Below, in pieces: positions 40,020-57,262 of a stretch of 64,000 nucleotides of DNA (positions are counted from its first letter, which is position 1; the number at the start of each line of letters is the position of its first letter). The stretch is from positions 434,001-498,000 of the forward strand of contig NZ_JACIBV010000002.1 in assembly GCF_014195505.1 (NCBI RefSeq), written 5' to 3'. Below the pieces are notes generated by a model. It was not told the origin of the DNA and did not search any database. It saw only the letters and a program-made list of their open reading frames with translations. The stretch comes from Nonomuraea dietziae (GTDB lineage: Bacteria; Actinomycetota; Actinomycetes; Streptosporangiales; Streptosporangiaceae). The translations under genes and the position numbers were made by a program.

Positions 40020-41372
40020 GTGTCCGATCTGTCGGAGCCTGGCGATAGTCTGCCGCTCCATAACGGTGATCGGAGGTGGGCGGTGGCGCCCGAGGTGCCA
40101 GGCTACGAGGTGCTCGGGCTGCTGGGCCAGGGCGGCTTCGGCGTCGTCTACCAGGCGCGGCAGCTGGCTGTCGGCCGCGAGGTGGCGCTCAAGGTCGACA
40201 GCAGGGTGCTCGTCTCCGAGCGTGACCAGCGGCGCTTCGTGCGCGAGGTCACCTCGGCCGGGGCGCTGTCGGGCCATCCCCACGTCGCGCACGTCTACGA
40301 CGCGGGGGTGCTGCGCGACGGCCGCCCGTACATGGTGCTGGAGCTGTGCCCCGGCGGCTCGCTGGCCGACCGCCTGCGCGCGGGCACGCTGACCGTCGCC
40401 GAGGTGCGCGACATCGGCGTCAGGATCGCCGACGCGCTGGCCGCCGCGCACGCGGCGGGGGTGCTGCACCGTGACGTCAAGCCCGCCAACATCCTGGTCA
40501 ACCGCTACGGCAACGTGGTGCTGTCCGACTTCGGGCTGGCCACGATGCCGGAGCCCGGCGCGGAGATGTCGGTGACGCGCGAGTCGCTCACCCCCGCCTA
40601 CGCCCCGCCCGAGGCGTTCGAGCTGACCGAGCCGACGGCGGCGGGCGACGTCTACTCACTGTCGGCCACCCTCTACGCGCTGCTGTCGGGGCGGCCTCCG
40701 CGCTTTCCCGAGAGCGGCGTGGCCAACCTGGCCGTGATCATGGCGCTGCACCGCAGGCCCGTGCCCGAGATCCCCGGCGTGCCCGCCGCCTTCACGGAGG
40801 TGCTGCGGCGCGCGCTGGCCACCGATCCCGGCCTGCGGACCCCGACGGCCGCCGCGTTCCGCGACGCCCTGGCCGCCACCGACCTGTCCGGTGCGGCGGG
40901 CCCTCCCGCCCCTCCCGGCGACGCGGGATGGCAGGGCCCGCCTCCCGCGCCCATGGCCGCGCACTCGGGCGGCTGGAGCGCGATGCCCACGGGGCAGGCG
41001 GCTGCCCAGGGGGCGGGCTGGAGCGCCGCGCCCACGGGCCCGGGGGCGGCTCACGCGGGCGGATGGGCCGCCGCGCCGACAGGGCCCCGGCCGGAGCAGA
41101 GACCGGGACACGGGCCTGGACACGGGCCTGGCCCCGCGCCGGGACGCGCGCCGGGACACGGTCCAGGGCACGGTCCAGGGCACGGTCCAGGGCACGGGCC
41201 GGCGAGGGGACACGCCGCCGGATGGCCCGCCGGTCACGACGGCGACCTGCGGGCGGCGCCCACCGCGATGTCGCGCCGCGCGAGGGGTGGCGGGGTCTAC
41301 GCCGCCGTCTCCGCGCTGTTCGCCGTGATGATCGCGATCGGGGTCGTGCTGATGCTCATGGAGGGCAGGTGA
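40020..41372 (+). CDS. Hanks-type Ser/Thr protein kinase, membrane-anchored
   Basis: A 450-residue kinase. The glycine loop is GQGGFGVV at 36-43, the catalytic Lys is K58, the catalytic loop HRDVKPAN is 150-157 and DFG is 170-172. A proline, glycine and histidine-rich linker (about 300-420, with GHGPGHGP repeats) is followed by one C-terminal membrane span (YAAVSALFAVMIAIGVVLML). There is no extracellular sensor domain. It is the first gene of a five-gene operon with a nuclease and a helicase, so it may phosphorylate and control them. An alternative GTG at 40083 would begin just before the kinase domain. Confidence 0.88.
   Translation: MSDLSEPGDSLPLHNGDRRWAVAPEVPGYEVLGLLGQGGFGVVYQARQLAVGREVALKVDSRVLVSERDQRRFVREVTSAGALSGHPHVAHVYDAGVLRDGRPYMVLELCPGGSLADRLRAGTLTVAEVRDIGVRIADALAAAHAAGVLHRDVKPANILVNRYGNVVLSDFGLATMPEPGAEMSVTRESLTPAYAPPEAFELTEPTAAGDVYSLSATLYALLSGRPPRFPESGVANLAVIMALHRRPVPEIPGVPAAFTEVLRRALATDPGLRTPTAAAFRDALAATDLSGAAGPPAPPGDAGWQGPPPAPMAAHSGGWSAMPTGQAAAQGAGWSAAPTGPGAAHAGGWAAAPTGPRPEQRPGHGPGHGPGPAPGRAPGHGPGHGPGHGPGHGPARGHAAGWPAGHDGDLRAAPTAMSRRARGGGVYAAVSALFAVMIAIGVVLMLMEGR
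41161..41196 (+). repeat. 12-bp tandem repeat in the kinase gene
   Basis: Unit GTCCAGGGCACG occurs three times in a row and encodes the GPGH repeats of the kinase linker. Related imperfect units lie just upstream (GGGCCTGGACAC). Confidence 0.8.
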
Positions 41373-41379
41373 CCTCCTC

Positions 41380-42174
41380 TTGAGCGACGACCTCGACGCG
41401 CTCGAGCGACGCATCGACCTGCTGCGCGCCCAGGTCCGCACCGCCGCCAGGGCCAGGGAGGCCGCCCTGGCGCGCGAGCTGCGCGGGCAGCTGCGCAAGG
41501 CCGAGCGGGCATGGGACACCCTGGTCAGCGCCCCTCCCCAGGTCGCCGCTCGTCCCGGCGAGCAGGAGGGGCGGGTCGCGGTGCCGGTGCGCGAGCGCGT
41601 CCACAGGGCGCTGACGCTGCTCGGCGTGCCCGCGGCCGGGCGGCTGGTGGTGAGCGTTCACGACGCGTTCTTCGCCGAACCGCTGCGCAGCTCGCAGCTC
41701 ACCACGCTGAGGCGTGACGAGGAGCGCACGTTCAGGCGCTCGCCGTACGCCAGGCCCCACTACGTGTGCGCCGCGCTCACCGACAGGCTCACCCCTGCCA
41801 GGGGGCTGCTGGCCGTGAGCACCTGGCCGCAGGAGCGCAGGGTGGTGGGCCCGCTGAGCCCGCGCGTCGACTTCCTGGTGGCGACCGTCCAGGTGGCCGC
41901 GTGCGCGGGACGGCTCGACGACCCCTCCCCCGCGGCGAGACGGCTGCTCGCCAGGATGGCGCGCAACGTGCCCGACGCGGGGAGCGGTTTCGGCGAGCCC
42001 GACCCCGAGCGGGTGGCCGTCGCGGCCAGGGCCGAGCTGGCGGTCCACCTCGAGGCCGACACGCGGCAGCGCGCGGAGCTGGCACAACGCGCCGCCGCGC
42101 AGCTGGATGAGGTGGCGTGCCTGTTCGGCGCGGCTACGCTGAGCGATGTCGCGAGGAAGGGTGCGTGCGCGTGA
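41380..42174 (+). CDS. Coiled-coil protein of the kinase-nuclease-helicase operon, unknown
   Basis: A 264-residue soluble protein read from a TTG at 41380, seven bases after the kinase stop. Residues 1-50 are a charged coiled coil (LERRIDLLRAQVRTAARARE). The middle is alpha-beta and resembles a winged-helix region (RVHRALTLLGVPAAGRLVVS, then LTTLRRDEERTFRRSPYARP). No catalytic motif is visible. Position suggests a structural or DNA-binding subunit of the system. Not recognised as any named family. Confidence 0.6.
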   Translation: MSDDLDALERRIDLLRAQVRTAARAREAALARELRGQLRKAERAWDTLVSAPPQVAARPGEQEGRVAVPVRERVHRALTLLGVPAAGRLVVSVHDAFFAEPLRSSQLTTLRRDEERTFRRSPYARPHYVCAALTDRLTPARGLLAVSTWPQERRVVGPLSPRVDFLVATVQVAACAGRLDDPSPAARRLLARMARNVPDAGSGFGEPDPERVAVAARAELAVHLEADTRQRAELAQRAAAQLDEVACLFGAATLSDVARKGACA

Positions 42175-42207
42175 GCCGGATATGTCAGGCGAGGAGAGCG
42201 GAGGCCG

Positions 42208-43323
42208 ATGGCGACCGTCGGTGAGAGGGTGAGCGGGCTCGACTCGCTGCGGGGCACCACGCCCGCCAAGCCCCACGACGCCAGGGCCATCGCCGCCCTG
42301 GCGGCCAACCCGGGATGCGCGCGAAGGGCGCTGATGGACGGCGCGGGCGTCGACAAGGACGCCGCCGCCAGGCACCTGGGCTTCCCCGCCCCGTTCGGCC
42401 AGTCGCCGTTCGCGATCACCAGGGGCAACGCCTTCGAGGCGCTGGTCAAGGCCGACGGTTGCGCGGAGCTGCTGAGGCTGCTGCGCGACGTGCTGCGCCT
42501 GCCGATCGACGAGGTGGCCTACCAGGACGTGCAGAACGTCGGCGCCCACCTGCGGCACGCCCACACCCGCACCCTGTTCGACAGGGCGGCGAGGGGCGAG
42601 CAGGGCACGCTCTACGACCATCCGCTGCTCAGCCTGAAGATCGCCGGGCACACCGCCTTCCTCGAGCCCGACGTGGTGGCCTTCCAGCACGGCGGGCGCT
42701 TCCACATCGTGGAGATCAAGTCGTTCGCGGTGATCGACGGGCAGGCCGACCCCGCCAGCGTGTCGGCGGCCGCCAGGCAGGCGGCGGTGTACGTGCTGGC
42801 CCTGCGCACGCTCCTCGAGGAGCTCGGTCACGACCCGCTGCTGGTGGCGCACGACGTGGTGCTGGTCTGCCCGGAGAACTTCGCCAACCGCCCGATGGCC
42901 ACCCTGGTCGACGTGCGCAGGCAGCTGGCCGTGCTGAAGCGGCAGCTGGCCAGGATGACCTCGATCGACAGGCTGCTGGCCGAGCTGCCCGAAGGGGTGA
43001 GCTTCGACCTGCTGCCCGGCGAGGACGGCGCGCCCACCAGGTCGGCCGAGGCCCTCGCCGAGGCGATCCAGCAGGTGAGCGCCCGCTACGCGCCCGACTG
43101 CCTGTCCACCTGTGACCTGTGCTTCTTCTGCCGCGACGAGGCCAGACGCGACGGGGCCTCCGACCAGCTCGGCAGGCAGGTGCGCGACGAGCTGGGCGGG
43201 GTGGCGACGGTGGAGGAGGCGCTGGCGCTGGCCGACGGGCTCAGGGAGCCCGCCCCCGGCCAGGAGGAGATCGCGCGCCTGTTGCGTGACGCCGAACGGC
43301 TGCGCAGGGAGTGCCTGGCGTGA
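42208..43323 (+). CDS. PD-(D/E)XK nuclease, Cas4/RecB-like, with Cys cluster
   Basis: A 371-residue nuclease. Acidic residue E77 (GNAFEALV), D155 (EPDVVAF), E169 and K171 (HIVEIKSF), and Q191 with Y195 (QAAVYV) match the RecB/Cas4 order. Cys298, Cys302, Cys305 and Cys308 (CLSTCDLCFFC) resemble the [4Fe-4S] ligands of Cas4 and AddB-type nucleases. The missing fourth ligand may be the N-terminal Cys37 or Cys85. It would cut DNA, probably with polarity. The gene is fourth from last in reading order and overlaps the next gene (GTGA). The enzyme class is well supported, the role is not. Confidence 0.8.
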   Translation: MATVGERVSGLDSLRGTTPAKPHDARAIAALAANPGCARRALMDGAGVDKDAAARHLGFPAPFGQSPFAITRGNAFEALVKADGCAELLRLLRDVLRLPIDEVAYQDVQNVGAHLRHAHTRTLFDRAARGEQGTLYDHPLLSLKIAGHTAFLEPDVVAFQHGGRFHIVEIKSFAVIDGQADPASVSAAARQAAVYVLALRTLLEELGHDPLLVAHDVVLVCPENFANRPMATLVDVRRQLAVLKRQLARMTSIDRLLAELPEGVSFDLLPGEDGAPTRSAEALAEAIQQVSARYAPDCLSTCDLCFFCRDEARRDGASDQLGRQVRDELGGVATVEEALALADGLREPAPGQEEIARLLRDAERLRRECLA

Positions 43324-44768
43324 GCATCCTGACCTCGCTGGCCAGGCTGAGGGCGATCAAGGAGGGTGTGGCGCAGCCCATCGCCACGGTCCGCCACTGC
43401 CATCTCGGCCGGCGCCCCATGGTCTTCGTCCCGCTCAGGCTCTCCGGCGAGGCCGCGGCGCCGCTGGCGGTCATGCTGGGCACCGATCGTGACGCGCCCG
43501 AGCTGCTCGTGGTGGCCCAGCCGCGCAACAGGGACTTGCGGTTCGCCTTCACGGCGGAGCTGGCGCGGGTGCTGCTGCCGTACGTGGAGAGCTTCCTCGG
43601 CCAGAGCGAGACGGTCGAGAAGAAGAACGCCGACCCCTACCAGCGGGCGCTGGACGCGCCGCAGCTGCTGCTGCCCAATCCCTCGGGCGTGGCCTTCACC
43701 AGGCTGCTCGGCAGGTCGACGAGGTTCCGCCGTCCCGACGGGCCCTATCCCGTGCCCGCCGAGGTGCCGCTGCTGGGCAGGTGGCTGACCTACTTCGCCG
43801 AGCGCGCCGCCCACCCCGGCTCGTCGCTGACGCTGGCGGCGACCGAGGAGCTCGGCCGCCACTGGGCCAGCGGGCAGAGCGGTCTGGAGGACGCCAACCT
43901 GGCCGCGCTGCTCGGCTGGATCTCCCCTCCCCCTGGGCGCACGGGGCCACAGGCCGCGCAGGAGGCCGAGGACCCGCTGATCTGGCCGCCCGCGGGCCCC
44001 GCCACCGACCCGGGGTTCGACGCCGAGGTGCTCGCGCCCGCGATCGAGAGCGGCACGGTCGAGCGCGTCACCGAGGCGCTGCGCACGCAGCTGGCGCCGA
44101 CGTGGCGGCTGATGTGGCAGGCCGTCGACCTGCTGCGCGCCCTGCCCGAGGGGGCGAGCGTCGCCACGCGGTGGGAGAGCGACCGCGGCTCGTTCAGCAT
44201 GATGGCCGAGCAGGTCGCCGAGGGCGCGCCGCCGCAGGCCCGCCGTGACGGCGCGGTCGCGGCCGCCTCCAGGCTGTCCAGGATGGAGCGCGCACAGGCG
44301 GCCTTCGAGGTGCAGCGCGCCTACGACGATCCGCTGGTCATGGCCGAGTACCGCCTGACGGGTGAGGCCTTCGCCGGCGAGGTCATCGAGACTGACCCCG
44401 AGCACACCGAGGGCGAGGGCCGCTCGCGCAAGCTGCGCCCTGTCGTCCTGGTCAAGACCGACGACCCCGTACGCCTGTCACCGGGCGCCACGCTCGGCAC
44501 GCCCGACCGCCGCGGCCAGGCGGCGCAGCTGGTCGACGTGAGCGACGGCCTGGTCACCCTGAAGATCACCAAGGGCATGGGCAGGGGCAGGACACCCGCT
44601 CCCGGGTCGGTGCCCGAGCCGGGTGAGCGGGTCTGCTACACCTCACTGACCGACGACTTCCAGGGCTCCGCCGCCCTGCCCGACAGGGACGCCACGCCAT
44701 GGACGCACGGCGGCCCGCCGCAGGAGTACGTCCCGAACGACGAGGACGCCCAGGAGGAATGGGCATGA
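43320..44768 (+). CDS. Helicase-associated protein of the nuclease-helicase operon, unknown
   Basis: A 482-residue soluble protein with no family I recognise. The N-terminal third is alpha-beta (LGRRPMVFVPLRLSGEAAAP). The C-terminal part (PVVLVKTDDPVRLSPGATLG, then AQLVDVSDGLVTLKITKG) looks like a small beta-barrel similar to the accessory 1B domain of Upf1-type helicases. This suggests it may work as the split N-terminal portion of the helicase encoded next. The GTG start overlaps the nuclease stop and the stop overlaps the helicase ATG, so the three are made together. Confidence 0.6.
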   Translation: MSILTSLARLRAIKEGVAQPIATVRHCHLGRRPMVFVPLRLSGEAAAPLAVMLGTDRDAPELLVVAQPRNRDLRFAFTAELARVLLPYVESFLGQSETVEKKNADPYQRALDAPQLLLPNPSGVAFTRLLGRSTRFRRPDGPYPVPAEVPLLGRWLTYFAERAAHPGSSLTLAATEELGRHWASGQSGLEDANLAALLGWISPPPGRTGPQAAQEAEDPLIWPPAGPATDPGFDAEVLAPAIESGTVERVTEALRTQLAPTWRLMWQAVDLLRALPEGASVATRWESDRGSFSMMAEQVAEGAPPQARRDGAVAAASRLSRMERAQAAFEVQRAYDDPLVMAEYRLTGEAFAGEVIETDPEHTEGEGRSRKLRPVVLVKTDDPVRLSPGATLGTPDRRGQAAQLVDVSDGLVTLKITKGMGRGRTPAPGSVPEPGERVCYTSLTDDFQGSAALPDRDATPWTHGGPPQEYVPNDEDAQEEWA

Positions 44769-46060
44769 GCAGCCCCGAAGAGGTCATCCAGGCCGTCCTC
44801 GCCGACCTGCCGAGGCACAGGGGCGTGGTCGTCGACTCGCCGCCTGGCGCGGGCAAGTCGACGCTGGTCGTGCGGGCCGCGGCGCACCTGGCGGCGACGG
44901 GCGAGCCGCTGATGATCGTGGCCCAGACCAACGAGCAGGTCGACGACCTCATCGAGCGCATCGCCGACAAGCATCCCGACCTGAGCGTGGGCCGCCTGTC
45001 GGCCTCGGGCTACGTGGCGCCGCTCAGGCTGCTCGAGCTGCCGAGCGTCACGATCGGCACCAGGGTGCAGGACCTCAACGATCCGGCCATCGTGATCGCC
45101 ACCGCCGACAAGTGGGCCTGGATCAGCGGCCGCACCTGGCCGTGGGCGATCGTCGACGAGGCCTACCAGATGCGCTCGGACAAGCTGCTGCGCATCGCGG
45201 GGCTGTTCGTGCGGGCGCTGTTCGTGGGCGACCCAGGACAGCTCGACCCGTTCTCGATCGTGGAGGCCGACCGGTGGGCCGGGCTGTCGTGGGACCCGGT
45301 GCAGAGCGCGGTGTCGGTGCTGCTGCGCCACAACCCCGACCTGCCCGTCCACCGCCTTCCGGTGTCGTGGCGGCTGCCCGCCTCTGCGGCGCCCGTCGTG
45401 TCGCGGGCCTTCTACCCCTTCACCGGGTTCAGAGCGGGCACAGGGCCAGGCGAGCGCCGGATGGAGCTCACCACCGAGGGCATGGGCACCGTCTACGACC
45501 GCACCCTGGAGGAGGCCGCCCGCGCGGGGTGGGCGCTGCTGGAGCTGCCGGCCCGCCACACGGTCCGCACCGACGCCGAGGCCGTCCAGGCGGTGGCGCT
45601 GCTGGCCACCCGGCTGCTGCAGCGCGGGGGCGTCGCCTACTCCGAGCGGGGCGAGGCGCCCGTGACGGCCGACCGCATCGCGGTCGGCGCCGCCCATCGC
45701 GACCAGGTGGCGGCGATCAGGAACGCGGGCGTGCCGCCCGAGATCACCGTCGACACCGCCAACAGGCTCCAGGGACGCGAGTACGACGTGACCGTGGTGC
45801 TGCACCCGCTGTCGGGGCGCAGGGACGCCACCGCCTTCCACCTCGAGTCAGGACGGCTGTGCGTGCTGGCCTCACGCCACAGGCACGCCTGCGTGGTGGT
45901 GGCCAGAGCGGGCATCCCCGAGCTGCTCGACGCCCACCCCTCGGCCGAGACCGTGCAGCTGGGGGTGCCCGTGAAGTTCCCCGACGGCTGGGAGGCCAAC
46001 CAGTCGGTGCTCGAGCATCTCGCCAGGCACCGGATCTCGGCCCGAGACGCGCGCGGGTAG
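44765..46060 (+). CDS. SF1 helicase/ATPase (Upf1/Dna2-like)
   Basis: A 431-residue helicase. Motif I is SPPGAGKST at 25-33, Ia VAQTNEQVDD at 52-61, II DEAY at 131-134, III GDPGQLDP at 155-162, IV SWRLP at 201-205, V TANRLQGREYDV at about 361-372 and VI LASRHRHACVV at 388-398. Domain 2A is intact, but no long accessory domain is present, so the partner protein upstream may supply it. The ATG at 44765 is used because AGGAGG lies seven bases upstream and it overlaps the previous stop. With the nuclease it resembles Dna2-like or AddAB-like machinery. Confidence 0.82.
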   Translation: MSSPEEVIQAVLADLPRHRGVVVDSPPGAGKSTLVVRAAAHLAATGEPLMIVAQTNEQVDDLIERIADKHPDLSVGRLSASGYVAPLRLLELPSVTIGTRVQDLNDPAIVIATADKWAWISGRTWPWAIVDEAYQMRSDKLLRIAGLFVRALFVGDPGQLDPFSIVEADRWAGLSWDPVQSAVSVLLRHNPDLPVHRLPVSWRLPASAAPVVSRAFYPFTGFRAGTGPGERRMELTTEGMGTVYDRTLEEAARAGWALLELPARHTVRTDAEAVQAVALLATRLLQRGGVAYSERGEAPVTADRIAVGAAHRDQVAAIRNAGVPPEITVDTANRLQGREYDVTVVLHPLSGRRDATAFHLESGRLCVLASRHRHACVVVARAGIPELLDAHPSAETVQLGVPVKFPDGWEANQSVLEHLARHRISARDARG

Positions 46061-48831: not shown

Positions 48832-49905
48832 ATGAGCGCGCCGACGGAGTCGCAACAGAGCACATCACAGACGCAGGACGAACCGGTTGTCCATATTCTG
48901 TGGATCAACGCGGGGCTGAGCTGCGACGGCGACTCCGTCGCGCTCACCGCCGCCACCCAGCCGAGCATCGAGGAGATCGTGCTGGGAGCGCTTCCCGGCC
49001 TGCCCAAGGTCGCCGTGCACTGGCCGCTGATCGACTTCGAGTGCGGTCCGATGCAGGGCGCCGACGTCTTCATCGAGTGGTTCTACAAGGCCGACCGCGG
49101 CGAGCTGGATCCGTTCGTGCTGGTGGTCGAGGGGTCGATTCCCAACGAGTCGATCAAGCAGGAGGGCTACTGGTGCGGGTTCGGCAACAACCCCGACACC
49201 GGGCAGCCCATGACCACCAGCGAGTGGCTCGACCGCCTCGCGCCCAAGGCGACGGCGATCCTGGCCGCGGGTACCTGCGCCACCTACGGCGGCATCCACG
49301 CGATGGCGGGCAACCCGACCGGCGCCATGGGCGTCGCCGACTACCTGGGCTGGGACTGGAAGTCGAAGGCGGGCCTGCCGATCGTCAACGTGCCGGGCTG
49401 CCCGATCCAGCCGGACAACCTGTCCGAGACCATCCTCTACCTGCTCTACCAGGTCGCAGGGCAGGCGCCGATGATCCCGCTGGACGAGGCGCTGCGCCCC
49501 ACGTGGCTGTTCGGTCAGACCGTCCACGAGGGCTGCGACAGGGCCGGCTACTACGAGCAGGGCCAGTTCGCCACCGAGTACGGCTCGCCGAAGTGCCTGG
49601 TCAAGATCGGCTGCTGGGGACCGGTCGTGAAGTGCAACGTCCCCAAGCGGGGCTGGATCAACGGCGTCGGCGGCTGCCCCAACGTGGGCGGCATCTGCAT
49701 CGCCTGCACGATGCCCGGCTTCCCCGACAAGTTCATGCCCTTCATGGACGAGCCACCGGGCGCCAGGATCTCCGCGACGGCCAGCGGCGCGTACGGCGTG
49801 CTGATCCGCTCGCTGCGCGAGTTCACCCTCCGGACGCTCGACAAGGAACCCAAGTGGCGCAAGAAGGGCCGCGAGCTGCTCACGGGCTACAAGGCCCCTT
49901 GGTAA
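48832..49905 (+). CDS. hhyS: [NiFe]-hydrogenase small subunit, group 1h type
   Basis: A 357-residue electron-transfer subunit with three FeS clusters. No Tat signal peptide is present (the N-terminus is MSAPTESQQSTSQ), so the enzyme is cytoplasmic. The proximal cluster motif reads LSCDGDS, with C31 and D34 where standard enzymes have a second Cys. Asp ligation of the proximal cluster is a known feature of the actinobacterial high-affinity class. Other cluster ligands are in AAGTCATYGG, PGCPIQPDN, HEGCDRAGYYEQ, GCWGPVVKCN and GGCPNVGGICIACTMPGFPDK. It pairs with the large subunit that follows. Confidence 0.93.
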   Translation: MSAPTESQQSTSQTQDEPVVHILWINAGLSCDGDSVALTAATQPSIEEIVLGALPGLPKVAVHWPLIDFECGPMQGADVFIEWFYKADRGELDPFVLVVEGSIPNESIKQEGYWCGFGNNPDTGQPMTTSEWLDRLAPKATAILAAGTCATYGGIHAMAGNPTGAMGVADYLGWDWKSKAGLPIVNVPGCPIQPDNLSETILYLLYQVAGQAPMIPLDEALRPTWLFGQTVHEGCDRAGYYEQGQFATEYGSPKCLVKIGCWGPVVKCNVPKRGWINGVGGCPNVGGICIACTMPGFPDKFMPFMDEPPGARISATASGAYGVLIRSLREFTLRTLDKEPKWRKKGRELLTGYKAPW

Positions 49906-49919
49906 CCAGCGAGGCTGAC

Positions 49920-51707
49920 ATGACGACCACACCACAGCAGACCGGCGACGAACTCGTCGAGATGGCATGGGATCCGATCACCAGGATCGTCGGAAGCCTG
50001 GGCATCTACGCCAAGGTGGACTTCAAGAACAGGACGGTCGCCGAGTGCTACAGCACCTCGTCGATCTTCCGCGGCTACAGCATCTTCATGAAGGGCAAGG
50101 ACCCCAGGGACGCGCACTTCATCACCAGCAGGATCTGCGGCATCTGCGGCGACAACCACGCGACGTGCTCGGTCTACAACCAGAACATGGCCTACGGCGT
50201 GCGGCCGCCGCACCTCGGTGAGTGGATCATCAACCTCGGCGAGTCGGCCGAGTACATGTTCGACCACAACATCTTCCAGGAGAACCTGGTCGGGGTGGAC
50301 TACTGCGAGAAGATGGTCCGCGAGACCAACCCGGGGGTGCTCCAGCAGGCCGAGCGCACGGAGGCGCCGCACGCGGGAGAGCACGGCTACAGGACCATCG
50401 CCGACATCATGCGCTCGCTGAACCCGCTGGAGGGCGAGTTCTACCGCGAGGCGCTGCAGGTGAGCCGTACCACGCGGGAGATGTTCTGCCTGATGGAGGG
50501 CAGGCACGTGCACCCCTCCACGCTCTACCCCGGCGGGGTCGGCACCGTCGCCACCGTGCAGCTGTTCACCGACTACCTGACCAGGCTCATGCGCTACGTG
50601 GAGTTCCTGAAGCGCGTGGTGCCCATGCACGACGACCTCTTCGACTTCTTCTACGATGCCATCCCCGGCTACGAGCAGGTCGGCAGGCGGCGGGTGCTGC
50701 TCGCCTGCTGGGGCAGCCTCAACGACCCCGAGCACTGCGACTTCACCTACCGGAACATGAGCGACTGGGGCCGGCGGATGTACGTGACCCCCGGCGTGAT
50801 CGTGGACGGGAAGGTGGTCACCAACGACCTGGTCGACATCAACCTCGGGATCAGGATCCTGCTGGGCAGCTCCTACTACGACGACTGGGAGGACCAGGAG
50901 CCGTTCGTCACACAGGACCCGCTCGGCAATCCGGTCGACATCCGCCACCCGTGGAACCAGCACACGATCCCGCACCCGCGCAAACGCGACTTCACCGACC
51001 AGTACAGCTGGGTCATGTCGCCCCGCTGGTTCGACGGCACGAACCATCTCGCGCTCGACACCGGCGGCGGGCCCATCGCCCGGCTGTGGTCGACCGCGCT
51101 GTCCGGCCTCGTCGACATCGGCTACGTCAAGGCCACGGGACACAGCGTGGTCATCAACCTGCCGCGCTCGGCCACCAGGCCGGAGCGGACGTTCGAGTGG
51201 AAGATCCCCGAACGTGGCGGCGAGCTGTACTCCAACACCCTCGAACGCAACAGGGCCAGGACCTACTTCCAGGCGTACGCCGCCGCCTGCGCGCTGTACT
51301 TCGTCGAGCAGGCGCTGGCCGAGGTGCGCGCGGGCCACACCCAGACGTGGTCGCCGTTCACGGTGCCCGAGGAGGCCATCAGCTGCGGCTTCACCGAGGC
51401 CGTGCGCGGGGTGCTGTCCCACCACATGGTGATCAGGAACGGGAAGATCGCCAACTACCACCCGTACCCGCCGACCCCGTGGAACGCCAGCGTCCGCGAC
51501 TCGTACGGCACGCCAGGCCCCTACGAGGACGCCGTGCAGAACACGCCGATCTTCGAGGAGAACGCCAGGGAGGACTTCAAGGGCATCGACATCATGCGCA
51601 CGGTCCGCAGCTTCGACCCGTGCCTGCCGTGCGGGGTCCACATGTACCTCGGCGGCGGCAGGCAGCTGCGCAAGCTGCACACCCCGCACGCCTTCGGCGG
51701 GTCCTGA
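49920..51707 (+). CDS. hhyL: [NiFe]-hydrogenase large subunit, group 1h type
   Basis: A 595-residue catalytic subunit that oxidises H2. The L1 motif is RICGICGDNH at 71-80 (Cys73, Cys76). The L2 motif is DPCLPCGVH at 566-574 (Cys568, Cys571). These four Cys bind the NiFe site. A 21-residue tail follows His574 and must be removed by the maturation protease. High-affinity uptake hydrogenases of this class let actinobacteria live on atmospheric H2 during starvation or sporulation. A ribosome-binding GCGAGG lies nine bases upstream. Confidence 0.95.
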   Translation: MTTTPQQTGDELVEMAWDPITRIVGSLGIYAKVDFKNRTVAECYSTSSIFRGYSIFMKGKDPRDAHFITSRICGICGDNHATCSVYNQNMAYGVRPPHLGEWIINLGESAEYMFDHNIFQENLVGVDYCEKMVRETNPGVLQQAERTEAPHAGEHGYRTIADIMRSLNPLEGEFYREALQVSRTTREMFCLMEGRHVHPSTLYPGGVGTVATVQLFTDYLTRLMRYVEFLKRVVPMHDDLFDFFYDAIPGYEQVGRRRVLLACWGSLNDPEHCDFTYRNMSDWGRRMYVTPGVIVDGKVVTNDLVDINLGIRILLGSSYYDDWEDQEPFVTQDPLGNPVDIRHPWNQHTIPHPRKRDFTDQYSWVMSPRWFDGTNHLALDTGGGPIARLWSTALSGLVDIGYVKATGHSVVINLPRSATRPERTFEWKIPERGGELYSNTLERNRARTYFQAYAAACALYFVEQALAEVRAGHTQTWSPFTVPEEAISCGFTEAVRGVLSHHMVIRNGKIANYHPYPPTPWNASVRDSYGTPGPYEDAVQNTPIFEENAREDFKGIDIMRTVRSFDPCLPCGVHMYLGGGRQLRKLHTPHAFGGS

Positions 51708-51720
51708 CGGGGAGGGGGCG

Positions 51721-52284
51721 ATGCCTGAGACCCTCGGCGCCCGCACGGCCGGCGAGCGCGTGGAGAGCCTGCTCGCCGAGCTGACCGCGCTCAGCGACAA
51801 GGCCACGCGCGACAAGGCCGAGGAGCTCGTGCGCGTGCTGGTCGAGCTGTACGGCGCGGCGCTCGAGCGCATCATGGAGATCGTCACGGACGGCGAACAG
51901 GCCGAGACGCTCCGCAGGATCGCCGAGGACGAGCTCGTCGGCGGCCTGCTCGTGGTGCACGACCTGCACCCGCTGAGCACGGAGGAGCGCGTGCTCGCGG
52001 CGCTCGAGAGCGTCAGGCCCTATCTCGGCAGCCACGCGGGGGACGTGGAGCTGGTGGGCGTCGAGGAGACAGGCGTCGTACGGCTGCGCCTGGCCGGCAC
52101 CTGCCACGGCTGCCCCTCCTCGCGGGTCACGGTGACGACGGCGATCGAGCAGGCGATCGCGCGGGCCGCGCCGGAGGTGGCAGGGGTCGAGGTGGACGGC
52201 GTGGCCGAACCGGACACGCAGCTGTACCAGATCGAGACACGCCGGCCGCCGGGCCCGTGTCCGGTGCCGGAGAGTGCGGCATGA
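51721..52284 (+). CDS. NifU-like scaffold protein, hydrogenase locus
   Basis: A 187-residue protein. The C-terminal NifU-type domain (LESVRPYLGSHAGDVELVGV, then AGTCHGCPSSRVTV) has Cys128 and Cys131. The N-terminal half is a helical domain with no clear match. It probably delivers FeS clusters to the hydrogenase subunits. A short 13-bp gap follows the large-subunit gene and the stop overlaps the next gene (ATGA), so expression is coupled. Confidence 0.82.
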   Translation: MPETLGARTAGERVESLLAELTALSDKATRDKAEELVRVLVELYGAALERIMEIVTDGEQAETLRRIAEDELVGGLLVVHDLHPLSTEERVLAALESVRPYLGSHAGDVELVGVEETGVVRLRLAGTCHGCPSSRVTVTTAIEQAIARAAPEVAGVEVDGVAEPDTQLYQIETRRPPGPCPVPESAA

Positions 52285-52910
52285 GCACCGGACTGCGCCG
52301 TTTCCGCGAGCCCCGCCCCGCCGACGCCCCCGCAGCCGGCGAGTGCTGCGAGATGTGCGCCGAGCCGATCGAGGCCGGGCACGGGCACGTGGTGAACGTG
52401 GAGAGCCGCGCCCTGCTCTGCGCGTGCAAGAGCTGCTACCTGCTGTTCACCGTGCCGGGCGCTGCGCAGGGCAGGTACCTGGCGGTGCCCGATCGCTACC
52501 TGTACGCGCCGCGCTTCGCCCTGTCGTCCGCCGACTGGGACGAGCTGCAGATACCGGTGCGGATGGCGTTCTTCTTCCGCAACTCCGCCCTGGGCCGTAC
52601 GGTCGCCTTCTACCCGAGCCCCGGCGGGGCCACCGAGTCGGAGCTGCCGCTGCCCACGTGGGAGAGGGTCATGGCGGCCAACCCCGGGCTCGCCGGCGTC
52701 GCCGCCGACGTCGAGGCGCTGCTCGTCGACCGGCGGGCGGACGGCTTCGTGTGCCATCTCGTGCCGATCGACGCCTGCTATGAGCTGGTCGGGCTGGTCA
52801 GGACCCGGTGGAAGGGCTTCGACGGCGGCCAGGAGGTCTGGCAGGCCATCGACGCCTTCTTCGAGAGGTTGCGGGCGCGCAGCGACGAGTTGCGAGCCGA
52901 TCATGACTGA
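52281..52910 (+). CDS. DUF5947-type Cys-rich protein, hydrogenase locus
   Basis: A 209-residue protein. The N-terminal Cys pattern GECCEMCAEPI (CxxC) and LLCACKSCYLLF (CxCxxC) could form a zinc ribbon or a rubredoxin-like iron site. The remainder is alpha-beta (LQIPVRMAFFFRNSALGRTV). I relate it to DUF5947 proteins that occur only in this type of hydrogenase locus. A role in electron transfer or FeS delivery is plausible. Overlaps both neighbours. Confidence 0.72.
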   Translation: MSTGLRRFREPRPADAPAAGECCEMCAEPIEAGHGHVVNVESRALLCACKSCYLLFTVPGAAQGRYLAVPDRYLYAPRFALSSADWDELQIPVRMAFFFRNSALGRTVAFYPSPGGATESELPLPTWERVMAANPGLAGVAADVEALLVDRRADGFVCHLVPIDACYELVGLVRTRWKGFDGGQEVWQAIDAFFERLRARSDELRADHD

Positions 52911-53550
52911 CCTCGGCTTCTCCTGCCTCGACGCCCGCGCCGACCGGTTCGCGGCGGCGCCGACGCTGTGCTTCCCGCTGCGGATCACCGATGCGGGCGG
53001 AGGCGCCGTGCACGCTGTCGCGCTGCGCTGCCAGATCCGCATCGAGCCGCAGCGCCGCCGCTACTCCGGCGCGGAGTCCGAGCTGCTCGCCGACCTGTTC
53101 GGCGAGCCCTCCCGCTGGGGTGAGACGCTCAGGCCCCTGCAGTTCGCGCTCGTCTCCACCATGGTCCCGGGGTTCACCGGGGTGACGGAGATCGACCTGC
53201 CGGTGCCGGTCACCTACGACCTGGAAGTGGCGGCGGGCAAGTACTTCGCCGCCCTCGACGGGGGCGAGATCCCGCTCCTCCTGCTCTTCAGCGGCACGGT
53301 GTTCGTCAGGACGCCCACCGGCTTCTCCGTCGAGCAGGTGCCGTGGGACCGCGAGACCCGCCACCGGCTGCCCGTGCCGCTCTGGCGGGAGCTGATGGAC
53401 CGCTACTTCCCTGGAGAGGGATGGCTGCGGCTGCGCACGGACACGCTGCGCGACCTGCACCGCTTCAAGTCCGCCCACGCGCTCGCCACGTGGGACGACA
53501 CCATGGAGGCGCTCCTGGCCAGGGCCAGGGCGTCGGAGGCGGCGCCATGA
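52903..53550 (+). CDS. DUF6084-type protein, hydrogenase locus
   Basis: A 215-residue soluble protein with a beta-rich fold (DLEVAAGKYFAALDGGEIPL, VFVRTPTGFSVEQVPWD) and no Cys cluster. I relate it to DUF6084. It has no signal peptide or membrane segments. Conserved in hydrogenase loci of this class, it may be a structural partner or anchor. It overlaps the preceding and following genes. Confidence 0.7.
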   Translation: MTDLGFSCLDARADRFAAAPTLCFPLRITDAGGGAVHAVALRCQIRIEPQRRRYSGAESELLADLFGEPSRWGETLRPLQFALVSTMVPGFTGVTEIDLPVPVTYDLEVAAGKYFAALDGGEIPLLLLFSGTVFVRTPTGFSVEQVPWDRETRHRLPVPLWRELMDRYFPGEGWLRLRTDTLRDLHRFKSAHALATWDDTMEALLARARASEAAP

Positions 53551-54905
53551 GCGCGTCGATGGAGATCGCCCGCAGGGTCGCCGACGCGGTGCTCTACGAG
53601 GGCTACCTGCTCTATCCCTACCGGGCCTCGGCCACCAAGAACCAGGCGCGCTGGCAGTTCGGGGTCCTGGTGCCGCCCGCCTACACCGCGACGGCCGAGC
53701 ATGCGGCCTGCAGGACCGAGTGCCTGCTCGAGGCCTCAGAGGACGCCGTCCTGCGGATCGGGCTGCGTTTCCTTCAGGTCCGCTCGAGGACCGTCGAACG
53801 CGCCGAGGGCGCGGGCCACCGTCCGGTCCCCGCGCTCGAGGTCGCCGGTGAGACGTACCTGACCTTCGACGAGAGCGTCGAGCGGGAGCACGACATGGTG
53901 GTGCCGCTGGCCGAGGTGCTCGCCTCGGAGCGGATCCACGAGGTGAGGCACGACGCGGCGCGCACGGTGGAGCGGCTGCCCGCCCCGCCCGGCGCTCCGG
54001 CAGGCCGGATCGTGCGCGAGGACCGGCGCATCGACGCGGTGCTGGCCGTGCGGGCCGAGCGGATCGACGGGCCGTACGGGCTGGTGAAGCTGCGCGTGCG
54101 GGTGGAGAACACCACGGCGTGGGCCGATCCCGACGCGCCGCGCGACGAGGCTCTGCGCTGCTCGCTGATCGCCGCGCACACGCTGCTCGCCGTCGAGGGG
54201 GGATCGTTCGTGTCCCTGCTCGACCCGCCCGCGTGGGCGGCGACGGCGGCGCGGTCGTGCGAGAACGTGCGCACCTGGCCGGTGCTCGCCGGCGAGGAGG
54301 GACGGCGGGACGTCATGCTGTCGGCGCCGATCATCCTGTACGACTACCCGTCCATCGCGCAGGAGAGCCCGGGCGAGCTGTTCGACTCGACCGAGATCGA
54401 CGAGCTGCTCAGCCTGCGCACGCTCACCCTCACCGAGGAGGAGAAACGCGAGGCCAGAGCGACCGACCCGCGAGCCGCCGAGATCATCGACAGGGTCGGC
54501 GACCTGCCGCCCGAGGTGCTCGCACGCCTGCACGGCGGCGTCCACCACCTGCGCCCCTTCGAGCGGGAGAGCGTGCCCTGGTGGGATCCTGGCGCCGACA
54601 CGGCGGTGTCCCCCGGGACCGACAGCGTGGTGGTCGACGGAGTAACCCTGTCCAGAGGCAGCGGAGTGCGCCTGCTGCCCGGGCGCGGCACCTCGCGCGC
54701 GCGGCGGGCCGACGCCCACGACATGTTCCTCGCAGGCCGCAGCGCGACGGTCGAGGCGGTCTTCCTCGACGTGGACGGCGTCCGCCACCTGGCAGTGACG
54801 CTGGACGACGATCCCGGGGCCGATCTGCAACGCGAGCAGGGCCGCTTCCTCTACTTCTCCCCCGACGAGGTCGAGCCCCTCGCGGGCGGGAAGGAGGACG
54901 GATGA
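53547..54905 (+). CDS. Large conserved protein of hydrogenase locus, unknown
   Basis: A 452-residue soluble protein with no family I can name. Conserved stretches include YEGYLLYPYRASATKNQARW near residue 19 and LTLTEEEKREARATDPRAAE, with a C-terminal beta-domain (GSGVRLLPGRGTSRARRADA, then ATVEAVFLDVDGVRHLAVTL). No Cys motif, signal or membrane span. It lies between DUF6084 and the maturation protease in an uninterrupted ATGA-coupled operon, so it should serve hydrogenase assembly or activity. Confidence 0.68.
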   Translation: MSASMEIARRVADAVLYEGYLLYPYRASATKNQARWQFGVLVPPAYTATAEHAACRTECLLEASEDAVLRIGLRFLQVRSRTVERAEGAGHRPVPALEVAGETYLTFDESVEREHDMVVPLAEVLASERIHEVRHDAARTVERLPAPPGAPAGRIVREDRRIDAVLAVRAERIDGPYGLVKLRVRVENTTAWADPDAPRDEALRCSLIAAHTLLAVEGGSFVSLLDPPAWAATAARSCENVRTWPVLAGEEGRRDVMLSAPIILYDYPSIAQESPGELFDSTEIDELLSLRTLTLTEEEKREARATDPRAAEIIDRVGDLPPEVLARLHGGVHHLRPFERESVPWWDPGADTAVSPGTDSVVVDGVTLSRGSGVRLLPGRGTSRARRADAHDMFLAGRSATVEAVFLDVDGVRHLAVTLDDDPGADLQREQGRFLYFSPDEVEPLAGGKEDG

Positions 54906-55520
54906 GCCGCAAGGTCCTGGTGGCGGGGGTCGGCAACGTCTTCCTCGGCGACGACGGCTTCGGCGTCGAGGTCGCCGGGCGGCTGCTGTCGGAGGCCGGC
55001 CTGCCGGACGGCGTGGTCGTGGCCGACTTCGGGATCCGCGGCATCCACCTGGCCTACGAGCTGCTGGCCGGCTACGACGAGGTGATCCTGGTCGACGCGG
55101 TGCCCATGGACGAGCCGCCGGGAACGCTGGCGGTCCTCGAACCGTCGCTCGACGAAGCCGGCCCCCGTGGACGACGTGTTCGCGCGGGGGGCGCTCACCG
55201 ACGCCCACGGCATGACACCTGACGCGATCTTCGGCCTGCTCCGCGCGTTCGGCGTCACGACCGGCCGGATCCTGCTCGTCGGCTGCCAGCCCGCCGACAA
55301 CTCGCCGGGCATGGAGCTCAGCGAGGCGGTGGCGCGGGCCGTGCCCTACGCCGCCGGCCTCGTTCGCGACCTGCTCGCGCCGGACCAACAAGGAGGGGTC
55401 AACGATGCTCAAACGCGTGCTGATCGTAGTGGTGGTGGCCGGGATAGCCGTCCTGGTGTGGCAGTCCCTGCCCGACATCAAGCGCTACCTCAAGATCCGG
55501 GAGATGTGAGCGGTGCATGA
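54902..55520 (+). pseudogene. Hydrogenase maturation protease, frameshifted
   Basis: A HupD/HyaD-type endopeptidase that should trim the large-subunit tail. The N-terminal part is normal (VLVAGVGNVFLGDDGFGVEV; metal-binding Asp in GDDGF and DAVPMDEPP). At a run of five C at 55162-55166 the frame is lost. Reading on in frame +1 from 55167 restores DDVFARGALTDAHGMTPDAI with the metal His, then VGCQPADNSPGMELSEAV. As written the protein stops at 55222. The restored frame runs to 55520, over a 34-residue gene. One extra C, real or a sequencing error, explains the break. Confidence 0.8.
55405..55509 (+). CDS. Small membrane protein, DUF6893-type
   Basis: A 34-residue protein (MLKRVLIVVVVAGIAVLVWQ, then SLPDIKRYLKIREM) with one N-terminal membrane span and a basic tail. 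AAGGAGGGG is seven bases upstream, and the stop is three bases before hypA. Its SLPDIKRYL motif recurs in very small actinobacterial proteins that I know as DUF6893. It lies in another frame within the restored 3' end of the protease gene. Role unknown, perhaps membrane attachment of the hydrogenase or an electron carrier. Confidence 0.75.
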   Translation: MLKRVLIVVVVAGIAVLVWQSLPDIKRYLKIREM

Positions 55521-55905
55521 GTTCGGCATCGCCACCTCGGTGCTCGACGCGGTCGAACGCCGCGCCGCGGGACGCCGGGTGGCCCACGTCAGGGTCCGTG
55601 CCGGGACGCTGCTCCGGATCACAGGGCCCGCCCTCGACCAGGCCTTCTCCCTGGTCGCGCAGGGAACGGTCGCCGACGGGGCCACGATCGACCTGGTCGT
55701 GGTGCCCGTCCAGCTCACCTGCAGGACCTGCGGCCGCGAGGAGGACACGGCCGACGCGCTGGCCGTGTGCGGCGCCTGCGGCGGCGCCGACGTCGACCTG
55801 CGGGGAGGCGACGAGCTGATCCTCGAATCCATCCAGATGGCGGAGGGACATCATGTGCCTGGGAATCCCCGGCGAGATCGTGGAGATCCTGCCAGACCAC
55901 GCTGA
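55513..55905 (+). CDS. hypA: Hydrogenase nickel incorporation protein HypA
   Basis: A 130-residue Ni/Zn protein that loads nickel into the large subunit. The N-terminal Met-His-Glu (here MHEFGIA) holds nickel, and the zinc site is C70-x2-C73 and C86-x2-C89 (CRTCGRE, then VCGACG). The GTG start lies three bases after the small membrane protein. The usual HypA ends near residue 112. This one has a 20-residue tail (AEGHHVPGNPRRDRGDPARP) that overlaps hypC by 53 bases. Either a real extension or an effect of overlap. Confidence 0.85.
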   Translation: MHEFGIATSVLDAVERRAAGRRVAHVRVRAGTLLRITGPALDQAFSLVAQGTVADGATIDLVVVPVQLTCRTCGREEDTADALAVCGACGGADVDLRGGDELILESIQMAEGHHVPGNPRRDRGDPARPR

Positions 55906-56131
55906 CCTGGCGAAGGTCGACGTCAGCGGGGTACGGCGGGCGATCAACATCGGCCTGCTGGAGAACGAACGGCTCCAGCCCGGCGACTGGATCCTCATCC
56001 ACGTCGGCTTCGCGCTGTCGAAGATCGACGAGGAGGAGGCCAGGGCCGCGCTGGACTTCCTGGAGGGCATCGGCCAGGCCTACGACGACGAGCTGGCGGC
56101 GCTCCGCGAATCATCGATCGACCGGAGGTGA
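55853..56131 (+). CDS. hypC: Hydrogenase assembly chaperone HypC
   Basis: A 92-residue canonical HypC (MCLGIPGEIVEILPDHADLA). The N-terminal Cys2 carries the Fe(CN)2CO unit with HypD. The conserved GDWILIHVGFALSKIDEEEA follows. Ends six bases before hypD. It is distinct from the divergent HypC-like protein at 47833. Confidence 0.95.
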   Translation: MCLGIPGEIVEILPDHADLAKVDVSGVRRAINIGLLENERLQPGDWILIHVGFALSKIDEEEARAALDFLEGIGQAYDDELAALRESSIDRR

Positions 56132-56137
56132 GGCGTG

Positions 56138-57262
56138 ATGCGCTTCGTCGACGAGTACCGCGACGCCGAGAAGGCCCGTGCCCTCTCCGCGAAGATCGCG
56201 AGCCTGTGCGAGCCCGGCAGGTCGTACAAGTTCATGGAGGTGTGCGGCGGCCACACCCACACCATCTACAAGCACGGTCTCGAGGACTACCTGCCCGAGT
56301 CCATCACGCTGGTGCACGGCCCCGGCTGTCCGGTCTGCGTCATCCCGATGGGGCGCGTGGACGACGCCATCCACATCGCCGAGCAACCCGAGGTCGTCAT
56401 GACCTCCTTCGGCGACATGATGCGGGTGCCCGGAGGGCGCGGCTCGTTCTTCGACTCCATGGCCCAGGGCGCCGCGATCCGCATGGTCTACTCCCCGCTG
56501 GACGCGCTCAAGGTGGCCAGGCAGAACCCGGACAAGCACGTGGTCTTCATGGCCATCGGCTTCGAGACCACGGCGCCCTCCACCGCGATGACCGTGCTGA
56601 GGGCGGCGGCCGAGGGCATCGGCAACTTCTCGGTCTTCTGCAACCACGTGACCGTCATCCCCGCCATCAAGGCGATCCTGGACTCCCCCGACCTGCGGCT
56701 GGACGGGTTCATCGGGCCCGGGCACGTGTCGACGATCATCGGCTGCCGGCCGTACGAGTTCATCGCCCGCGACTACGGCAAGCCGCTGGTCGTGGCGGGC
56801 TTCGAGCCGCTGGACATCCTCCAGTCGATCTACATGCTGCTGGTGCAGCTGGCCGAGGGGCGTTCGGAGGTGGAGAACCAGTACGCGCGCGTCGTGCCGT
56901 GGGCGGGCAACCTCAAGGCGCTCAGGGTCATCAGCGAGGTGATGGAGCTGCGGCCGTACTTCGAGTGGCGCGGCCTCGGCTTCATCTCGCACTCCGCGCT
57001 GAAGGTCAGGGAGAAGTACGCCGCCTTCGACGCCGAGCAGATCTTCGAGATCCCCGGCAGCCGGGTGGCCGACCCGAAGGCCTGCCAGTGCGGCGAGGTG
57101 CTCAAGGGCGTGCTGAAGCCGTGGGAGTGCAAGGTGTTCGGTACGGCCTGCACGCCGGAGACGCCGATCGGCACCTGCATGGTCTCCTCCGAGGGGGCCT
57201 GCGCCGCCTACTACAACTTCGGCCGCTTCTCCCGTGAGCGGGTGAGGGAGGCGACCAGGTGA
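56138..57262 (+). CDS. hypD: Hydrogenase formation protein HypD
   Basis: A 374-residue FeS protein where Fe(CN)2CO is assembled. Cys36 (MEVCGGHTHTI), Cys64 and Cys67 (HGPGCPVCVIP) are the redox and iron-binding residues. Four further Cys in the C-terminal CQCGEVLKG, KPWECKVFG and GTCMVSSEGACAAYYNF bind a [4Fe-4S] cluster. Two starts are possible, GTG 56135 and ATG 56138. The stop overlaps hypE by GTGA. Confidence 0.95.
   Translation: MRFVDEYRDAEKARALSAKIASLCEPGRSYKFMEVCGGHTHTIYKHGLEDYLPESITLVHGPGCPVCVIPMGRVDDAIHIAEQPEVVMTSFGDMMRVPGGRGSFFDSMAQGAAIRMVYSPLDALKVARQNPDKHVVFMAIGFETTAPSTAMTVLRAAAEGIGNFSVFCNHVTVIPAIKAILDSPDLRLDGFIGPGHVSTIIGCRPYEFIARDYGKPLVVAGFEPLDILQSIYMLLVQLAEGRSEVENQYARVVPWAGNLKALRVISEVMELRPYFEWRGLGFISHSALKVREKYAAFDAEQIFEIPGSRVADPKACQCGEVLKGVLKPWECKVFGTACTPETPIGTCMVSSEGACAAYYNFGRFSRERVREATR

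Follow-up and report, generated by a model that had tools for sequence, protein, structure and literature searches.

The eukaryotic superfamily 1B (SF1B) helicases DNA2, IGHMBP2 and UPF1 are single chains. In Bad of Geobacillus stearothermophilus (PMC7430649), a RecB-family nuclease of the iron-sulphur (Fe-S) type precedes an SF1B helicase in one monomeric protein. Another helicase-nuclease, HerA-NurA, accompanies Mre11-Rad50 (SbcCD), and HerA itself is described in PMC9960219 as a ring ATPase of the FtsK/HerA family. Here we analyse a stretch of 64,000 nucleotides from Nonomuraea dietziae (contig NZ_JACIBV010000002.1, positions 434,001 to 498,000 of the forward strand; hereafter the window, in whose own numbering all coordinates are given), which holds a conserved gene set that has no name in the libraries searched. 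We consider it probable, at roughly 60%, that three of its products, called nuc, unk and hel below, are the chains of one DNA2-like helicase-nuclease, accessory copies of which have been recruited to defence, while the kinase gene beside it is a mere neighbour.

The unit lies at the end of five closely spaced genes on the forward strand: a Ser/Thr kinase of the Hanks type (40083..41372; the frame is open from 40020 and our codon-usage script favours the GTG at 40083), the coiled-coil protein cc, a putative accessory subunit (41380..42174), the RecB/Cas4-like PD-(D/E)xK nuclease nuc (42208..43323), the middle subunit unk, which has no family match (43320..44768), and the helicase hel (44765..46060, with an alternative ATG at 44759). 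A first-pass annotation had grouped all five into an operon. Its frames are all open at the positions it gave, its spacing (7 and 33 bases between the first three genes, followed by two overlaps of 4 bases) was reproduced, and the kinase, nuclease and helicase motifs that it called intact are so, as judged by the Pfam Pkinase match (E 3.3e-42), nuclease residues D155, E169 and K171, and the helicase Walker A motif. Gene calling, here and elsewhere, relied on a home-made codon-usage script, and gene starts as well as the absence of cc from a locus should be read as approximate.

What is conserved across genomes, however, is nuc-unk-hel, often with cc, and not five genes. Our locus set combined 60 stretches from genomes, 80 named loci and the window, from which 3 exact duplicates were dropped to leave 138 loci, all chosen by a match to unk or hel; near-duplicates (L065/L067) and multiple loci from one genome were retained. 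In 113 of the 138, nuc, unk and hel stand together on one strand with at most one called frame between neighbours (one such frame intervenes in 8 of the 113), and the unk and hel genes abut or overlap in 103 of 112 directly adjacent cases, so that the grouping goes beyond chance. By the codon-usage calls, cc adjoins nuc in 80 of the 113. The low-GC locus L077 yielded no gene calls, though a six-frame search shows nuc, unk and hel in it, and two interrupted genes, the helicase of L105 (split over two frames) and the SbcD of L319 (in pieces), were kept unmended. The idea that a homologue replaces cc in Streptomyces was rejected, the upstream frame in L063, L066, L108 and L193 reading as a PAP2-like membrane protein.

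As for distribution, unk is present in 84 of 150 genomes of the window's family, 51 of 121 of its order and 28 of 396 in a phylum sample, where a few matches are weak; hel is present in 58 of 61 genomes of a further genus (58 of the 59 good ones), which we take to be Streptomyces because named Streptomyces loci have matching flanking genes. A first scan of genome contigs with unk alone gave no relative, while a search with the helicase alignment did. In the helicase tree (FastTree) the branching of most copies agrees with taxonomy, and so does that of the window copy, whose genome measures 10.2 Mb and whose closest named helicases come from Nonomuraea. One 10.7-Mb single-contig genome of the Streptomyces type (G592) holds two helicase copies with identical scores (C1:20125-21438 and 10655700-10657013), near both contig ends and oppositely oriented, an arrangement like that of terminal inverted repeats.

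The nuclease shows, at the level of motifs, both the RecB-type signature and the four domain-spanning cysteines of DNA2 and Bad. C37 (codon at 42316..42318) and the group Cys298-x3-Cys302-x5-Cys308 (43099..43131) are invariant in two alignments (A2, 46 rows; A7, 32 rows) and are the predicted ligands of an Fe-S "iron staple". The catalytic region, which we take to be D155 ... E169-x-K171 (42670..42720), is followed by Q191-x3-Y195. In 4 of the 32 rows of A7 one of the acidic residues is lost (E169 in L152 and L181, D155 in L156 and L159), which suggests nuclease-dead variants in which the gene set is still kept. The proposal that a Cas4-like nuclease is accompanied by an SF1 helicase and by a partner protein is borne out, the nuclease being of the RecB type with four cysteines.

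The helicase carries Walker A (PPGAGKST, 44840..44863, with P26, G28, G30 and K31 invariant), DEAYQ and GDPGQLDP motifs, and its profile matches in the PDB are SMUBP-2, UPF1 and DNA2, so that a UPF1-like SF1B motor core is present, here without a stalk or 1B domain of its own. Its Pfam matches are AAA_11 (E 9.3e-09) and AAA_12 (E 1.8e-06), as opposed to UvrD-helicase at E 0.17, and the UvrD-like (SF1A) motor of AddAB, AdnAB and RecBCD was accordingly not found. PLuB (NF040671) was considered since hel matches its C-terminus, and was dropped when 0 of 79 genomes came over the cut-off. The stalk and 1B barrel that would be expected between nuclease and motor are predicted at the C-terminal end of unk (residues 310-459, 44247..44696), as in UPF1-like SF1B helicases. 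The AlphaFold2 model of unk (predicted local distance difference test 89, predicted template modelling score 0.85) also contains, at residues 30-287 (43407..44180), an RNase H-like fold that resembles the exonuclease part of family-B DNA polymerases and probably lacks the DxE motif.

If the motor is indeed divided between unk and hel, the two genes should occur together even where they are not neighbours. In 17 loci one of the two was not seen next to its partner, and 13 of these were examined (all except L077, L079, L176 and L185). Genomes reached via hel, all from Micromonosporaceae, contained unk in 11 of 11 cases, and those reached via unk (L060, L061) contained hel in both. Copy numbers of unk and hel were equal in 13 of 13 genomes (1:1 in eleven, 2:2 in two), as a split motor predicts, the counts being made under different E limits for the two proteins and including one unk match with an internal stop (in G717). 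Near the separated hel gene of five Actinoplanes-type loci (L161, L163, L165, L176, L194) we also observed a much longer helicase-profile protein, of 1154-1741 residues.

Comparison with single-chain relatives shows both how far the likeness goes and where it ends. As in Bad, the nuclease comes before the SF1B helicase with a similar Asp-to-Walker spacing; unlike in Bad, the parts here are spread over three chains, the division of the motor falls between its barrel and its core, and cc is present in addition. The single polypeptide of DNA2 and Bad is replaced by three genes in the 113 loci above, and in several Micromonosporaceae hel is unlinked. With eukaryotic DNA2, IGHMBP2 and UPF1, hel shares its core by profile and the C-terminus of unk resembles their stalk and 1B barrel, whereas the domain that precedes the stalk in unk is more like the exonuclease domain of a polymerase. 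The actinomycete fusions of the TM0106 family, found with the TIGR03491 model (13 proteins of 1112-1252 residues aligned, L231-L244 without L239), have the same kinds of domain in the same order in one chain: in four scanned with Pfam, RNase_H_2 precedes AAA_12 and further AAA models, one of the four also matches PDDEXK_1, and a fifth (L246), which falls under the TIGR03491 cut-off, shows no RNase_H_2. Against the helicase core of these fused RecB-like/helicase proteins, hel is clearly homologous (hhalign 99.8%). For nuc and unk, on the other hand, hhalign gives 0.6% and 0.1%, in shallow alignments (effective number of sequences 2.3 to 3.35). Because profile homology was detected for hel alone, the statement that the unit works like DNA2 is better supported than the statement that it is descended from a split DNA2.

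The first-pass annotation could not assign the set to a named system, and our searches agree. Neither PADLOC nor NCBIfam has a model matching cc, nuc or unk at E <= 1, and hel gave only weak partial matches there. Across Pfam, NCBIfam, PADLOC and PHROGs nothing useful was found for the same three proteins, the best being cc to Phasin at E 0.0042, under its cut-off. Profile searches of the PDB with nuc, unk and cc returned only matches taken as chance, including one of nuc to a designed repeat protein at E 6e-10, and neither cc nor unk had a significant match when Foldseek was used on its own. The fold of cc comprises an N-terminal two-helix hairpin, a probable winged-helix domain at about residues 70-145 and a helical C-terminus. 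Mokosh and other PADLOC systems were not matched across the gene set (the helicase reached MkoA partially, at 31.9 bits). Among the literature matches listed, with subscription papers and preprints outside the scope, we recognised no publication describing the set.

A further clue to function comes from SbcCD. SbcD and SbcC genes adjoin the unit in 8 of the 138 loci. In Amycolatopsis (2), Kibdelosporangium and Crossiella they share its strand and lie downstream, whereas in the other four (L069, L070, L099, L102) they are upstream and divergent; at 1-3 SbcD genes per 5-12 Mb, a rough estimate puts the chance neighbours in 138 loci below 1. The unit-linked SbcD is an extra, distinct copy in all eight genomes, and the eight form a single clade (support 100/99, with long branches flagged by the program), whereas at least 3 gains or losses are needed to place the link on the helicase tree. 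In the window's own genome an SbcD of the sister clade adjoins a HerA homologue (7f6d, E 8.1e-141), away from nuc-unk-hel, and the SbcD of L305 comes after a HerA homologue (E 1.5e-107); the NurA match beside HerA-SbcD is weak (E 0.0035 at best). From this we infer that the unit occupies the place that HerA holds in related SbcCD operons. It resembles HerA-NurA as a helicase-nuclease beside SbcCD and differs in having an SF1B motor and a RecB-type nuclease instead of a ring ATPase: the solved relatives of hel are SF1 enzymes, none of them HerA, and nuc matches no NurA model (Pfam being weak for bacterial HerA and NurA). An exclusive link with SbcCD was rejected, as none of the 7 SbcD stretches retrieved from elsewhere, among 56 matching genomes, contains the unit.

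The first-pass annotation had also pointed to DNA repair or phage defence, and an important question is whether the main role of the unit is defence against plasmids or phages, with SbcCD and Wadjet as its usual partners. Several accessory copies speak for this. The Streptomyces plasmid locus L322 (NZ_CP108489.1, 275633-294913) begins with SbcC and SbcD, continues with cc, nuc, unk and hel, and ends with a pair of Jet-type genes, a gene for an ATP-binding protein and JetD; SbcC-SbcD is divergent on the other side of the unit from the Jet set, and the identities of SbcD, cc, nuc, unk and hel are supported by profile matches. A second Streptomyces plasmid locus, L319 (NZ_CP027023.1, 169907-186110), has the unit directly before Jet genes, with the broken SbcD on the other side, and L102 and L069 combine SbcCD with genes of Wadjet I and Wadjet II (JetA2/JetB2), respectively. 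The genes of Wadjet (JetABCD) immediately follow the unit in four loci, belonging to type I in L102, L319 and L322 and to type II in L069. L065 and the near-identical L067 lie beside pPIWI-RE genes, with HmaA and HmaB on the other side in L065, L153 lies beside a type I restriction-modification set, and two predicted viral contigs from IMG/VR (L323, L324) carry divergent full cc-nuc-unk-hel sets, whose hel is 30-32% identical to that of the window. Set against this, Wadjet and the unit have no proteins in common and most copies, the window's included, are without Wadjet; Jet, pPIWI-RE or Hma genes occur in 4 of the 138 loci, in a scan limited to families seen in few loci, which covered selected neighbours and made no count around all loci or random controls; and none of 50,697 phage records matches unk. 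Metabolic genes, identified by reading, surround the window copy, among them a downstream block (48832-57262) that is presumably a NiFe hydrogenase with its maturation set, and no defence gene was noticed beside it, the defence-family scan having covered only the five operon proteins. That the window copy follows taxonomy and that the helicase occurs in nearly every good Streptomyces genome is the pattern that genome maintenance would give. We regard primary defence as rather unlikely, and the evidence on the defence idea is mixed, some accessory copies speaking for it and the window copy against it. Plasmid records with hel relatives number 30, of which 27 are only 30-33% identical; the helicases of about 33% in Rhodococcus, Mycobacterium and Xylanimonas were set aside as another system, since they come after VWA-type genes and only the hel profile matched. 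In L317, L318 and L320, from plasmids of Rhodococcus, Mycobacterium avium and Xylanimonas, this helicase also follows an unannotated protein of about 390 residues, and two of them have AAA ATPase genes.

The kinase raises a different issue, namely whether the five genes form one kinase-controlled operon, as the first-pass annotation proposed. The kinase has a Pro/Gly-rich linker and a C-terminal hydrophobic segment, shares the strand of the unit and, in the window, precedes it by 7 bases; four more loci (L086, L089, L136, L140) have a same-strand kinase directly upstream. In these four, however, the gap is 80-143 bases, all five belong to the window's family or Sphaerisporangium, and a kinase directly upstream is lacking in 113 of the 118 loci where this could be judged, among them the other Nonomuraea loci of the set; in one locus, L157, a kinase lies downstream. 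With 5 of 118, the kinase is therefore outside the conserved unit, as a chance or lineage-specific neighbour, and a membrane-anchored kinase as a control step is unsupported. The kinase alone scores high on the PADLOC PD-T4-6 models (208.6 bits to PDLC04042), but these are given without a cut-off and one kinase matches over 25 models; from the at least 25 matches of one protein, they appear to match many Ser/Thr kinases. Equivalog-level matches to MADS were not found, the kinase reaching 144.2 bits against a cut-off of 460 (mad6, kinase) and the helicase only 19.6 bits to mad8 (ATPase). Altogether we consider a kinase-controlled operon very improbable. Somewhat less improbable, yet still doubtful, is that hel is an RNA or R-loop helicase akin to UPF1, Senataxin or Sen1, with the nuclease acting on RNA-DNA hybrids. 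The linkage to SbcCD speaks against this, and DNA is the substrate of the known RecB/Cas4-type nucleases with four such cysteines, Bad among them. In its favour, the structures nearest to hel or to the unk barrel include UPF1, Sen1 and Setx, and there is a DinG helicase in the pPIWI-RE neighbour, an enzyme that PMC3702460 describes as acting on R-loops.

Returning to the three-chain helicase-nuclease, its function is probably DNA-end processing, with the window copy most likely a vertically inherited genome-maintenance enzyme and accessory copies most likely recruited repeatedly by defence loci. In such a complex, unk would supply the 1B and stalk elements to hel in trans and position the nuclease ahead of the motor, so that broken ends or flaps would be unwound 5'-3' and their single-stranded DNA cut, and cc, with its hairpin and winged helix, may help to load the complex on DNA. 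In some lineages a dedicated SbcCD might open or deliver the ends. More tentatively, and with less confidence than in the general interpretation, we propose a three-subunit DNA2 analogue that builds its SF1B motor from two polypeptides (one with 1B and stalk, one with the RecA cores), includes a catalytically silent exonuclease-like domain, replaces HerA-NurA as the helicase-nuclease of a dedicated Mre11-Rad50, and serves chromosome maintenance as well as, on mobile elements, the processing of Wadjet-cut DNA.

Human DNA2 is a single protein for unwinding and trimming broken DNA, whereas the bacterial set seems to be three. If our interpretation is correct, many actinomycetes, nearly all sampled Streptomyces included, would hold a DNA2-type end-processing machine whose motor is split between two genes, offering a natural test of the role of the 1B and stalk domain. 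It would also mean that Mre11-Rad50 has a partner of the DNA2 kind in bacteria, as it does in eukaryotes, and may hint at a disposal route for DNA cut by Wadjet.
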